Assembly (NCBI GenBank): GCA_014729725.1
Contig: WJJL01000033.1
Span: 1-40,682 of the forward strand
Direction of reading: 5' to 3'
Length of the DNA: 40,682 nt
DNA from: Candidatus Moraniibacteriota bacterium
GTDB lineage: Bacteria > Patescibacteriota > Minisyncoccia > CAIUEV01 > JAHKAQ01
Shown: positions 2,737-7,781 of the stretch, one piece after another
Layout of the letters: each line of letters begins with the position of its first letter
Numbering within the stretch: position 1 is the stretch's first letter
The notes under the pieces: generated by a model
The model's input: the letters and a program-made list of their open reading frames with translations, nothing else
Told to the model about the DNA's origin: nothing
The model's database searches: none
Program-made: the position numbers and the translations under genes

Positions 2737-2793
2737 TTGACAAAGATTATTATTTGAATATACTATGCATATAGGGGTGTATAATTAGTAAAC
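2737..2793 (+). promoter_or_regulatory. lexA promoter with putative SOS operator
   Basis: TTGACA (2737-2742), a 16-base spacer and TATACT (2759-2764) form a strong promoter, with a second TATAAT at 2780-2785. Just downstream is CATATA (2768-2773), GTG (2777-2779) and GTAAAC (2788-2793). The same three blocks at identical spacing occur downstream of the recA promoter (6582-6607). Autoregulation of lexA is known in many bacteria, so this shared block is a candidate LexA site; that is inference. Confidence 0.6.
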
Positions 2794-2800
2794 AATTAAA

Positions 2801-3448
2801 ATGAAAATTTTAACTCAAAAACAAAAAAAAGTATTAAACACAATCAGAAACTTTTTTTCCATCAACGGTAAAATGCCAACTATCAGAGAAATCAAACAGG
2901 AGTGTGAAAAAAAAGGATTAAAATTAAAAAGCACTCGCAGCATTTTTAATTATTTGAATGCTTTGGAACAAAAAGGTTATATTAAAAGAAGCTCAAAGGA
3001 AAGAGGAATAAAAATTTTAGATGGCATTAATAATAATTTCATTAATGTCCCCATTATCGGTTCTGCCAACGCTGGAATGCCTGCTGTTTTTGCCGAAGAA
3101 TATGTAGAAGGTTATTTAAAAGTTTCCAAAAGAATTATTCAAGATAAGAAGGTTTTTGCCATTCAGGTTAGCGGGGATTCTATGGATTTGTCGGTTGTAA
3201 ATCACAAAAAAGTGGAAGATGGGGATTTTGTGATTGTGGATGGAGATTATAGTGATTACAGAAACGGGGATAAAGTTTTGGTTTCTATCGACGGCCTTGC
3301 CACTGTAAAAACTTTTAGAAAAATGGACAATAATCATATTGGTTTATTTCCGGAATCTCAGAATCAAAAACATAAACCTATTTATTTAACTCAACAGGAT
3401 CAATTTATTATTAATGGGAAAGTTATTGATGTTTTAAAATTTAATTAA
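2801..3448 (+). CDS. lexA: LexA-type SOS repressor
   Basis: At 215 residues it has the normal LexA length. Residues 1-70 form a winged helix-turn-helix of LexA type (MPTIREIKQ followed by a wing ending around residue 70). The C-terminal half is an S24 self-cleaving peptidase: the scissile Ala91-Gly92 lies in SANAGMPA, the nucleophile is Ser127 in SGDSM, and the general base is Lys170 in ATVKTF. In the family, RecA filaments trigger cleavage and derepress repair genes. recA lies 3.3 kb away with a related promoter element. The start is the only ATG that gives a full DNA-binding domain. A phage-type repressor is less likely given the layout and context. Confidence 0.93.
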   Translation: MKILTQKQKKVLNTIRNFFSINGKMPTIREIKQECEKKGLKLKSTRSIFNYLNALEQKGYIKRSSKERGIKILDGINNNFINVPIIGSANAGMPAVFAEEYVEGYLKVSKRIIQDKKVFAIQVSGDSMDLSVVNHKKVEDGDFVIVDGDYSDYRNGDKVLVSIDGLATVKTFRKMDNNHIGLFPESQNQKHKPIYLTQQDQFIINGKVIDVLKFN

Positions 3449-3478
3449 ATTAATTAATTCTAAAAATTAAATTTAAAA

Positions 3479-3712
3479 ATGGATAAAAAAAATATTCATG
3501 TAATCCCTCATTTAACTCAGTGGGCGATTAAAATCGAGGGGGAAAATAAAATTATTTCCGCCCATAAAACACAATCCAGCGCCATTGATGAAGGCAGGAA
3601 ATTGGCTAAAAAATATATGTCAGAATTAATAATTCATACCGCGGAGGGGAAAATTCGCGATAAAGACAGCTATGGAAATGATCCTTGTCCGCCCAAAGAT
3701 ACTAAATTTTGA
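3479..3712 (+). CDS. DUF2188 domain protein
   Basis: A 77-residue protein spanning essentially one DUF2188 domain. It shows the typical pattern of VIPHLTQWAIKIEG at the N-terminus, alternating strands, and a C-terminal RDKDSYGNDPCPPKD tail that is characteristic of the family. The biochemical role of DUF2188 is not known. It follows lexA by 30 bases on the same strand and could be cotranscribed, which would place it under SOS control, but no direct evidence is visible. The gene ends with TGA and is followed by a hairpin at 3776-3809. Confidence 0.8.
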   Translation: MDKKNIHVIPHLTQWAIKIEGENKIISAHKTQSSAIDEGRKLAKKYMSELIIHTAEGKIRDKDSYGNDPCPPKDTKF

Positions 3713-3775
3713 ATTCAAAATAGTTCTTAGTAAATTTTAAGATAAAAATTGTGGTTTTTTGTTGATTTTTGAACA

Positions 3776-3809
3776 AATAAAAACACTATTTATTTAGTGC
3801 TTTTATTTT
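3776..3809 (+). terminator. intrinsic terminator after lexA-DUF2188
   Basis: CACTA (3784-3788), loop TTTATT and TAGTG (3795-3799) form a stem flanked by an A-run on the left and a T-run on the right, so it could work in both directions. It separates the lexA pair from the alkylation-repair gene. Confidence 0.6.
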
Positions 3810-3851
3810 AGGAAAAGCTTTGACTTATATATATAAATTTATAAAAATAGA

Positions 3852-4568
3852 ATGAATCAAGTTATACCAAAGATAAGAAACGAGCTTAAAAAAAATATTG
3901 ATCAAAAATATAAAGAAAATTCTAAAAATTTTTTTAAGGAAAAAATAAAAATATATGGAGTAAGAAGCCCGATTGTTCGAAAAATTGCTCAAAAGTATTA
4001 TAAAGAAATTTCGCATTGGGACAAAAAAGCCATATTTAAACTTGCTGAGAAATTATTACAATCGGATTATAATGAAGAAGCTATCATTGCTTTTGATTTT
4101 ATTTTTAGAAAAAGAAAGGATTTTTCTAAACAGGATTTTCGAAAGTTTGAATATTTTATTGATAAATATGTAAACAATTGGGGAAAATGTGATGATTTTT
4201 GCACTCACAGCGTAGGATGCTTGTTGGAGCGATTTAGTGTCCTGGTTAGCCGGAATGATTTAGAAAAATGGGCTAAAGCAAAGAATATGTGGCTAAGAAG
4301 AGCCGCGGCTGTTTCTTTAATCTTACCGGTTAGAAGGAAAATGTATTTGAAAAAAGCTTTTAAAATTGCCGATATTTTGTTATTGGATAAAGAGGATTTG
4401 GTGCAAAAAGGTTATGGCTGGCTTTTAAAAGAAGCCAGCAACCAATTTCCCAAAGAAGTGATTGATTTTGTTAAAAAAAGAAAAGCCAAAATGCCTCGAA
4501 CCGCCCTTCGCTATGCTATTGAAAAACTGCCAAATAAGACTAGGAGGGAGTTAATGAGGCGAAATTAA
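3852..4568 (+). CDS. AlkD-like DNA alkylation repair protein
   Basis: This 238-residue all-helical protein matches the DNA alkylation repair (HEAT-like, AlkC/AlkD) family. Bacillus cereus AlkD excises N3- and N7-alkylated purines without base flipping, using Trp109, Asp113 and Trp187. Equivalent residues can be placed here: Trp110 and Asp114 in NNWGKCDDFC, and Trp190 in GYGWLLKEAS. The helix WLRRAAAVSLI (147-157) is also a family mark. The full length suggests it is intact. It follows LexA, the DUF2188 gene and a terminator, so it has its own transcription start or reads through. The glycosylase assignment is from family knowledge. Confidence 0.88.
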   Translation: MNQVIPKIRNELKKNIDQKYKENSKNFFKEKIKIYGVRSPIVRKIAQKYYKEISHWDKKAIFKLAEKLLQSDYNEEAIIAFDFIFRKRKDFSKQDFRKFEYFIDKYVNNWGKCDDFCTHSVGCLLERFSVLVSRNDLEKWAKAKNMWLRRAAAVSLILPVRRKMYLKKAFKIADILLLDKEDLVQKGYGWLLKEASNQFPKEVIDFVKKRKAKMPRTALRYAIEKLPNKTRRELMRRN

Positions 4569-4696
4569 AATTTTTAAAAATATTTTTCTCTAGTAATGGA
4601 TTTAGCAATTTCTAAAAATTGCAGTAGTTGATACAATATGCAAAAATCTAATTAGTCATTTACAAAAAATTCTTTTTAATTATTAATCAAAACAAG

Positions 4697-4969
4697 ATGG
4701 AAATCCAAATCGATAATAATCCAAGTTCAGAAAAATTACAAAATTTAGATGTTTCCTCCTGGGGAGTTTGGGAGAAAGAAACCTCAAGCTTTCCCTGGAG
4801 TTATGATGAACAGGAAAGTTGTTATATTTTAGAGGGGGAGGCTGAAATAACTCCGGAAGATGGGGAAAAGGTTGTAATTAAAAGTGGTGATTTTGTTGTT
4901 TTTCCCAAAGGTTTAAAATGCACCTGGGATATTAAAAAACCAATTAAAAAACATTATAAATTTGGCTAA
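4697..4969 (+). CDS. small cupin (DUF861/EutQ-like) protein
   Basis: A 90-residue single-domain cupin of the cupin_3 (DUF861) type. Residues 22-30 (SWGVWEKET) and FPWSY lead into a beta-barrel with SCYILEGEAEIT and the second cupin motif KSGDFVVFPKGLKCTW. The classical metal-binding histidines are largely absent: the first motif has Cys-Tyr where many cupins have His-Xaa-His. It may therefore bind a small ligand rather than a metal. The gene is monocistronic, convergent with tyrS. Substrate unknown. Confidence 0.8.
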   Translation: MEIQIDNNPSSEKLQNLDVSSWGVWEKETSSFPWSYDEQESCYILEGEAEITPEDGEKVVIKSGDFVVFPKGLKCTWDIKKPIKKHYKFG

Positions 4970-5106
4970 GTAAGGGAACGTTGAGATTCATTTTGGATCA
5001 CTGGCAAAATATATGCCTTATCCTATTTCCAGCAATGTTCTTGTATAAAATATTCTTATCAGATGAAGGGGATCGAGATTTTTAGCCACTGTGAAGAATT
5101 TTTGAT

Positions 5107-6348
5107 TTAGGCTTTAATTATTTTTAAAAAATCCTTTTTGCCGGCTTTTATAATAATTTGAGGTTTTTTATCTAATATTTCAGTAATTGATAAATTAAGG
5201 TCGGTTTGTTTTTTTCCATCAATCGAAACTCCTCCTTGAGCGATTAATTGTTTGCACTTACCTTTGGAATCTCGGATTTTTAAGGAATTTAAAAGATCAA
5301 GGAGATTTAATTGTTGTTGTGATTCTTTTAATAAAGAAGAAAGTTTGTAAGTTTTTATTTCATCAGGAGTTTCTCTTTTAGAAAACACTTTTACAAAATG
5401 TTCTTTAGCTTTTTTAGCTTTTTTTTCGCCCTTTATTAATTTGACTATTTCAAAGGCCATTATTTTTTTAAATTTCATTGGGTTCTGTCCTTGCTTTATT
5501 AATTTTTCATATCTTTTTATATCTTTCATTTCAACTTTGGTTAGAAGCTCAAATCCTTTGATAATTAAGCTGTCCGGATAACTCATAGCTTTACCAAAAA
5601 TTTCTTCGGCGCTGTCGGAAAGATTAATACCATTGCCTTTGGTTTTGCTCATAGTGCGCTGATCCGGAGCATCCATCATTTGATGAGTTCTGACAAATTT
5701 TTCTTTATTTAAGTAGGCTCTACTGATATCGCGACCTACCAACATATTGAAAGTTTGATCCGAACCTCCCAGCTCCATGTCAACCTCCATGGCCACTCCG
5801 TCATAACCTTGCATTAAAGGATAAATCATTTCATGGAGCCTTATTGGATCGCCTTGTTTTAATCTTCTTTCAAACATGTCTCGTTCAATCATTCGCTGTA
5901 AAGTTATTTTACTCATCAATTTTAAAATATCCTCGAATTGTAACTTTGAAAGCCAGGAGGAGTTATATAAGAATTTGACCGGATTTTTTCCTTCAAACTC
6001 AATCAATTGAGCGGCCTGTTTCTGCCAACCTCTCATATTGCTATAAATTTGCTGATCATTTAGCATTTCGCGTGTGGTATCTTTATCCGGATCCCCGATT
6101 TTTGAGGTAAAATCACCTACTAAAAAAATAACTTCATGTCCGAGTTTTTGGAGAATGCTTAGAGCTCTTATTCCTATTGCATGACCGACATGCAGATATT
6201 TACCAGTTGGATCAAAACCCTGATAAATTTTTAGTTTTTTTCCGGATAACAGTTTTTTTCTAAGCTTTTCTTTGCTTGGATAAATTTTTTCCACTCCTCT
6301 GTTTAAAAATTCATCAATTAGTTTTTGATCTTTTAATATTGTTGCCAT
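5107..6348 (-). CDS. tyrS: tyrosyl-tRNA synthetase
   Basis: A class I aminoacyl-tRNA synthetase of 413 residues that charges tRNA-Tyr. The HIGH motif reads HVGH (53-56) after GFDPTGKY, and the KMSKS loop reads MSKTK (233-237). The tyrosine pocket strand YDGVAMEVDMELGGSDQ is present. The C-terminus from about residue 345 is an S4 RNA-binding domain (KCKQLIAQGGVSIDGKK), as in the TyrRS type with a KMSKS-like loop. The ATG is preceded by an A-rich leader with no Shine-Dalgarno. No T-box leader is visible upstream. It is divergent from recA across a 368-base gap. Confidence 0.96.
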   Translation of the reverse strand: MATILKDQKLIDEFLNRGVEKIYPSKEKLRKKLLSGKKLKIYQGFDPTGKYLHVGHAIGIRALSILQKLGHEVIFLVGDFTSKIGDPDKDTTREMLNDQQIYSNMRGWQKQAAQLIEFEGKNPVKFLYNSSWLSKLQFEDILKLMSKITLQRMIERDMFERRLKQGDPIRLHEMIYPLMQGYDGVAMEVDMELGGSDQTFNMLVGRDISRAYLNKEKFVRTHQMMDAPDQRTMSKTKGNGINLSDSAEEIFGKAMSYPDSLIIKGFELLTKVEMKDIKRYEKLIKQGQNPMKFKKIMAFEIVKLIKGEKKAKKAKEHFVKVFSKRETPDEIKTYKLSSLLKESQQQLNLLDLLNSLKIRDSKGKCKQLIAQGGVSIDGKKQTDLNLSITEILDKKPQIIIKAGKKDFLKIIKA

Positions 6349-6716
6349 TTTTCAATCTTTAAATTTTAAAACCATTAGGGTGCCGGTTTTTATAATTATT
6401 GTCTATTGCTGAAATTATTGCTTATAATGCCTTTATATATTAAATAATGTCATTATTTTAGAAATTTTGCAATTAAAAAATTTTTAAAAATTAATTTGTC
6501 GTTGTATTTAAAGGTTTCTTAAGCCCCGCTATACTTACTTGTTTTTTTGATTTGACATAAAGATTAATTTAGATTAACATACATATATTAGTGAATATAA
6601 TGTAAACAAAAATAAATTATCCAACTAAAATTTTATTTTTATTTAATCTTTTTCTTATATTCTTTTCATAAAAATTCATTAATGTATAATTTAATTTAAT
6701 AATTAATAAAATATAA
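6349..6716. other. divergent tyrS/recA intergenic region (368 bases)
   Basis: The region holds the recA promoter and putative SOS element (6552-6607) and another TATAAT at 6685-6690 about 27 bases before the recA ATG, which could be a second start site. The tyrS-proximal part (6349-6550) is AT-rich with no clear hairpin, small gene or T-box element. Confidence 0.5.
6552..6607 (+). promoter_or_regulatory. recA promoter with putative SOS operator
   Basis: TTGACA (6552-6557), a 17-base spacer and TAACAT (6575-6580) form a promoter. It is followed by CATATA (6582-6587), GTG (6591-6593) and GTAAAC (6602-6607), the same blocks at the same spacing as in front of lexA. Binding by the local LexA is inferred. 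Confidence 0.6.
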
Positions 6717-7781
6717 ATGTCCAAACAAAAGAAAAAAACGGTAAAAAAATCAACAGCAAAAAAAAGCAAAACCAAAAGAAAGCCAAACAAAAAGCACGTG
6801 GCAGTAGAAGAAGCCGTAAATAAAATTAAAGAAAAATACGGCGAAGGTTCGATTATGAAACTTGGAGAAGCTAAAAAAGTTGATGTGGCTTCGATACCGA
6901 CCGGTTCCATTTCGCTCAATTATGCTTTGGGAATAGGCGGGGTTCCCAAAGGAAGGATTGTGGAAATTTATGGACCTGAAGCCTCCGGAAAAACAACCTT
7001 AGCCCTTCATGTTTTAGCGAATTGTCAAAAAAATGGCGGTTCGGTTGCTTTTGTCGATGCTGAACACGCCCTTGATCCAGAGTACGCCAAAAGGGTTGGG
7101 GTAAATGTTGATGAAATGTTAATTTCTCAGCCCGACACTGGAGAGCAGGCTTTGGAAATTGTTGAAACTTTAGTGTTATCAGGGGGAGTGGATGTAATTG
7201 TGGTTGATTCTGTGGCTGCGCTTACCCCCAAAGCTGAAATAGAAGGGGAGATGGGGGATTCTCACATGGGTTTACAAGCCCGCTTAATGTCTCAGGCTCT
7301 TAGAAAACTTACTTCCATTGCTTATAAAAACGGTACCACTATTATCTTTATTAATCAGGTTAGAATGAAAATTGGAGTGTTCTTCGGAAATCCGGAAACC
7401 ACCACCGGAGGCAAAGCTTTGAAATTTTATTCTTCAGTTAGAATTGAGGTTAGAAGATCAGCTCAAATCAAGCAGGGCGATAAAGTAATTGGTAATCGGG
7501 TTAAATCAAAGGTGGTAAAAAATAAAGTGGCCCCTCCTTTTAAAACAGCTGAATTTGATATTATGTATAATGAAGGTATTTCTTGGGCCGGAGACTTAAT
7601 TAATATGGCGGCCTCTTATAATGTCGTTGAAAAAAGCGGTTCCTGGTATGTTTATGGTAGCGAGAAATTGGGACAGGGTTTGGAAGCTGCTAAAAAATCC
7701 TTGAAAGAAAATTCTAAATTAGTTAAAGATATTATGAAAAATCTGGATATTGCTTTGAAAGAGGAATTGGAAAAAGAGTGA
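6717..7781 (+). CDS. recA: recombinase RecA
   Basis: A 354-residue RecA that polymerises on single-stranded DNA, catalyses strand exchange and, in the SOS response, stimulates LexA cleavage. Walker A is GPEASGKT (86-93), DAEHALD follows at about 114-120, and the [10 protein letters not shown] Walker B strand and L2-region [10 protein letters not shown] are intact. Unusual is the first ~27 residues, a lysine/threonine-rich extension ahead of the normal N-terminal helix. The ATG at 6717 is kept because the frame and A/T-rich leader fit; an internal start would lose the extension but no later ATG lies close to the core. No Shine-Dalgarno is seen. Confidence 0.97.

Follow-up and report, generated by a model that had tools for sequence, protein, structure and literature searches.

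The two blocks shared by the lexA and recA promoters of the analysed 40,682-nucleotide stretch (hereafter the window) are very probably operators bound by the product of the lexA gene at 2801-3448. LexA governs the response of bacteria to DNA damage, and here it would autoregulate its own gene and repress recA. This reading, put forward in the original prediction, is well supported by motif discovery, by the ranking of a held-out matrix and by the recurrence of the motif at lexA and recA of relatives. The source genome (G000; 1.14 Mb in 69 contigs, ~95% complete) is that of a Moranbacteria-like patescibacterium, and its nearest LexA relatives among named records are Candidatus Moraniibacteriota bins. 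The relevant features of the window are as follows.

2737..2764, + strand: lexA promoter, TTGACA (2737-2742), 16-nt spacer and TATACT (2759-2764); consensus scan, 11/12 matches
2768..2773, + strand: CATATA of the lexA copy; also at recA here, CATATT at lexA of G002
2777..2794, + strand: predicted LexA operator core of lexA, GTGTATAATTAGTAAACA; matrix score 15.7, second in the window
2801..3448, + strand: lexA, 215 aa, complete, DNA-binding domain and S24 peptidase; TIGR00498, PF01726/PF00717
2936..2938, + strand: codon of LexA Arg46 in the recognition helix, at the position of E. coli Asn41
3479..3712, + strand: DUF2188 ORF (PF09954), 30 nt downstream of lexA
6552..6580, + strand: recA promoter, TTGACA (6552-6557), 17-nt spacer and TAACAT (6575-6580); consensus scan
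6574-6601, + strand: alternative recA promoter TTAACA-N16-TATAAT, overlapping the operator; consensus scan
6582..6587, + strand: CATATA of the recA copy
6591..6608, + strand: predicted LexA operator core of recA, GTGAATATAATGTAAACA; matrix score 17.1, top in the window, with counterparts at recA of G002 and three Moranbacteria genomes
6717..7781, + strand: recA, 354 aa; TIGR02012, 529 bits

The LexA product scores 139.6 bits against TIGR00498 (cut-off 110.95), 50.9 against PF01726 and 88.6 against PF00717, and alignment with the solved E. coli LexA and with relatives revealed that it keeps the Ala91-Gly92 cleavage site as well as the catalytic residues Ser127 and Lys170. Judged by spacing alone, the DUF2188 ORF is possibly co-transcribed with lexA. 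Between lexA and recA lies an AlkD-like DNA alkylation repair gene (3852-4568; PF08713, 192 bits), which has no box of its own.

The block CATATA-N3-GTG-N8-GTAAAC is found exactly as originally described at 2768-2793 and 6582-6607, and these two are the only exact copies both in the window and in the whole 1.14 Mb source genome. Allowing up to three mismatches, the window holds four matches where 0.76 would be expected, and the exact two among them are the lexA/recA pair; the core RTGWANNNNNNGTAAAC likewise has two exact matches in the source genome, at the same pair. Since the block pattern was chosen after both copies had been seen, independent data provide the real test.

For this purpose, ~36 LexA relatives with upstream DNA were gathered by a search of genome contigs, and unsupervised expectation maximization (EM), with no pattern supplied, was run on the 250-bp upstream regions of 37 lexA promoters. 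It recovered TATGTAAGTnnaGTAAACAAA in most of them, with a log-likelihood of 228.8 compared to 72.7-83.6 in 12 Markov controls. The conserved motif in the lexA promoters of relatives is RTGWAAG-N4-GTAAACA, located just downstream of the -10 element and typically following immediately on a promoter with TTGACA and a TATWMT-like -10. Its information resides mostly in RTG, A, (A)G and GTAAACA. In a symmetry test, an offset of 9 gave the best direct-repeat score (4.1), compared to 1.7 for the best dyad. The predicted operator core is RTG-W-A-N6-GTAAACA, an imperfect direct repeat of TGWAA and RGTAA with a period of 9 bp.

A matrix built from 21 held-out lexA promoters, all outside the window's family, was then applied to the 40.7-kb window and to individual loci. 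In the window the top score, 17.1, went to the recA site and the next, 15.7, to the lexA site, followed by a third hit at 10.4. The best scores of 60 simulated windows averaged 11.7 and reached 19.4 at most; simulated DNA yields ~1.7 hits per Mb per strand at a score of 15.7 and ~1.0 at 17.1, and at such densities chance hits at exactly both expected promoters are highly unlikely. A single matrix score elsewhere in the genome is no proof. Moreover, matches with up to one mismatch are no commoner in the source genome (54) than those of a reversed-pattern control (74), so that weak further sites are indistinguishable from chance.

Within the window's family, LexA orthologues are found in G002 (76% identical) and G001 (60%); the same search gave no match in G003 and merely a 31% match in G004. 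G002, which belongs to another genus, is the closest relative with LexA. Its recA promoter (locus L049, CATATAATAGTGTATATAAAGTAAAC) carries the exact element, with 15/15 specified bases, and its lexA (L019/L078, CATATTATAATGTATAAACAGTAAAC) carries the element with two mismatches, both outside GTAAAC. G001 retains just GTAAACA at lexA, in addition to a weak recA site, GTGAATTAAAAGTAAATA, scoring 9.5. No box was found at the recA promoters of G003 and G004, the family members without a LexA orthologue. These comparisons also trim the original block. The offsets of 31 and 30 bases from TTGACA to CATATA are right for the window, but the distance is 20 at recA of G002, and fixed TTGACA spacing was rejected as an operator feature. 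CATATA was rejected as a part of the operator too, as it is found in the G000/G002 pair only, and beyond this pair just RTG-W-A-N6-GTAAAC(A) is retained.

Beyond the family, recA carries the box in three Moranbacteria genomes with an Arg46 LexA (L219, L223 and L226), which together with G000 and G002 makes five distinct genomes. In many relatives that encode LexA, among them G047, G166, G186 and the genomes of L080 and L086, recA lacks the box, which indicates that control of recA is not universal. A match upstream of recA at L060 (13.4) looks like background, and the recA matches of L055, L060, L061 and L227 have one in-frame stop codon within the matched stretch. Where lexA is the second gene of a putative operon, the box lies upstream of the operon, as in NUDIX-lexA (L090), RhuM-lexA (L095) and dinD-lexA (L106); a NUDIX-lexA pair is also boxed at L181. 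The dinD product of L106 passes the DinD model with 338 bits (cut-off 242), and in E. coli this gene is among the targets of LexA. Other boxed genes in Moranbacteria encode DUF3800 (L095), Bro-N (L180, L184), RhuM/Fic (L211, L214) and PemK-like toxin (L188) proteins; the box suggests that these toxin-like or mobile genes may be DNA-damage-inducible.

The wide regulon expected by the original prediction is not seen in the source genome, where only lexA and recA stand out. Of the places where the block had been expected, namely lexA and recA of close relatives and other repair genes, the former hold it in G002, whereas none is present at uvrA and ruvA of the source genome. The repair genes checked for a box there were uvrA, ruvA and dnaE, uvrB being cut by a contig end, and a search for a Y-family polymerase gave no match in this ~95% complete genome. 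At dnaE the lone candidate, with a score of 13.2, lies inside the upstream coding sequence; it was rejected because the last part of that upstream ORF, a CxxC stretch (CKFCKF), is encoded there, and the frequency of such values, ~5.5 times per Mb per strand, also counted against it. The 52 one-mismatch matches of the source genome were rejected as further targets, being nearly all in coding sequences, and so was a match at C2:18363 (L153), which is part of a long palindrome, CCCAACCTTAGTTAACATAATGTAAGTTATGTTAACTAAGGTTGGG. The distance from this palindrome to the downstream ORF, which by eye resembles a tyrosine recombinase, is ~210 nt, and the palindrome is possibly a Xer/dif-type site.

Further analysis linked the box to the recognition helix of LexA, which reads KS-x-R-S in the box-associated proteins. 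The arginine of this helix, Arg46, aligns with Asn41 of E. coli LexA, a DNA-contacting position. Among 28 lexA genes encoding Arg46, 23 have the box directly upstream, and the number rises to 26 when three operon promoters are included; the exceptions are L079, with a GTAAACA half-site only, and L112. By contrast, the box is present at none of nine lexA genes with Ala, Gly or Lys at this position (23/28 versus 0/9, Fisher p 1.6e-5, counts that are not independent of kinship). In the LexA tree, whose backbone is unresolved, the genes with a box group into three supported clusters, set apart from one another by Ala/Gly lineages. Motif discovery on the lexA promoters of the Ala/Gly46 type returned just the -35 element TTGACA. 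Close to the start, TGAACA or AAACA-like elements occur in six of these promoters (L099, L100, L101, L103, L108 and L110), such as GTTTATTGAACA in L110, and by eye TGAACA is a candidate alternative operator. Residue 46 might accordingly act as a specificity switch, with Arg selecting the GTAAAC direct repeat and Gly or Ala a TGAACA-like element, while the SOS regulon of the window's family would have shrunk to lexA and recA with no Y-family polymerase; we regard this combined proposal as tentative, possible rather than probable.

The strongest competing explanation, in which a different regulator of lexA and recA uses the block as its operator and LexA binds elsewhere, draws on the comparative nature of the link between box and LexA, and on the boxed PemK-like toxin, RhuM/Fic and DUF3800 genes, which could form another stress regulon. 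Nevertheless, it is unlikely, since the box occurs in the lexA promoters of many genomes, where it tracks both the presence of LexA and its recognition-helix residue, and since the dinD-lexA operon has it as well. Even less likely is a shared promoter feature acting with no repressor, namely an alternative -10 TATAAT and an AT-rich start region. A TATAAT hexamer does lie inside each block (2780-2785 and 6596-6601), CATATA is -10-like, and at recA of G002 the -10 element is probably the TATAAT of CATATAAT. However, the whole genome has just two exact copies, GTAAAC, which is conserved 3' of the -10, does not belong to the sigma-70 elements, and such a feature leaves the link to the LexA residue unexplained. 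A chance likeness of two promoters in AT-rich DNA, made easier by picking the pattern after seeing both copies, has a negligible probability, given that the motif recurs independently in G002, at both recA and lexA, and in lexA promoters of other families, and given the held-out ranking.

The LexA-operator reading sets this motif beside known LexA boxes. The GAAC-N4-GTTC box of Firmicutes and the CTGT-N8-ACAG box of E. coli resemble it as LexA operators lying over the promoter; both are inverted repeats, whereas the motif here favours a direct repeat (4.1 versus 1.7 for a dyad). The originally noted difference from GAAC-N4-GTTC and CTG-N10-CAG therefore holds for RTGWAAG-N4-GTAAACA. More doubtful is the claim that the box had not been described, because a 2017 report on Patescibacteria appears to describe a direct-repeat LexA motif. 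The study concerned (Sanchez-Osuna, Barbe and Erill 2017, Environ. Microbiol. 19:3465) reportedly addresses the DNA-damage network of Patescibacteria, and a later paper cites it among examples of direct-repeat LexA motifs. The two cases share the superphylum and the protein family and, going by that citation, the direct repeat. A literature search, with the 2017 Patescibacteria consensus outside the comparison, found no published motif matching RTGWAAG-N4-GTAAACA. The LexA motif of Balneolaeota, TTACACATATTTTWTACATA (PMC7739468), is a direct-repeat operator too, and its reverse complement begins with TATGTA, like TATGTAAG here. They differ in the second half-site and in the period, which is ~11 bp by our own reading of the consensus compared to 9 bp here, and the Balneolaeota regulon includes translesion polymerases (PMC7739468). 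The alphaproteobacterial box GTTC-N7-GTTC (PMC8565304) is also a direct repeat, with another half-site and a period of 11 bp.

From the computed operators, their conservation and their link with LexA and its recognition-helix Arg46, we infer a course of binding, repression, cleavage and induction. LexA would bind RTG-W-A-N6-GTAAACA at the -10 element or slightly past it and, sitting over the start region, would block transcription of its own gene as well as that of recA. Upon DNA damage, RecA filaments would trigger the self-cleavage of LexA at Ala91-Gly92, and both lexA and recA would be released.

Altogether, the motif provides a testable LexA operator for uncultured bacteria with reduced genomes, whose regulons are nearly uncharacterised. 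It also suggests that the SOS core of lexA and recA under LexA control persists in a genome of 1.1 Mb. How LexA specificity drifts, long a topic in SOS evolution, could be probed simply through the pairing of the recognition-helix residue with the type of operator, and in Moranbacteria the box points to toxin-like and mobile-element genes that are likely to be DNA-damage-inducible.
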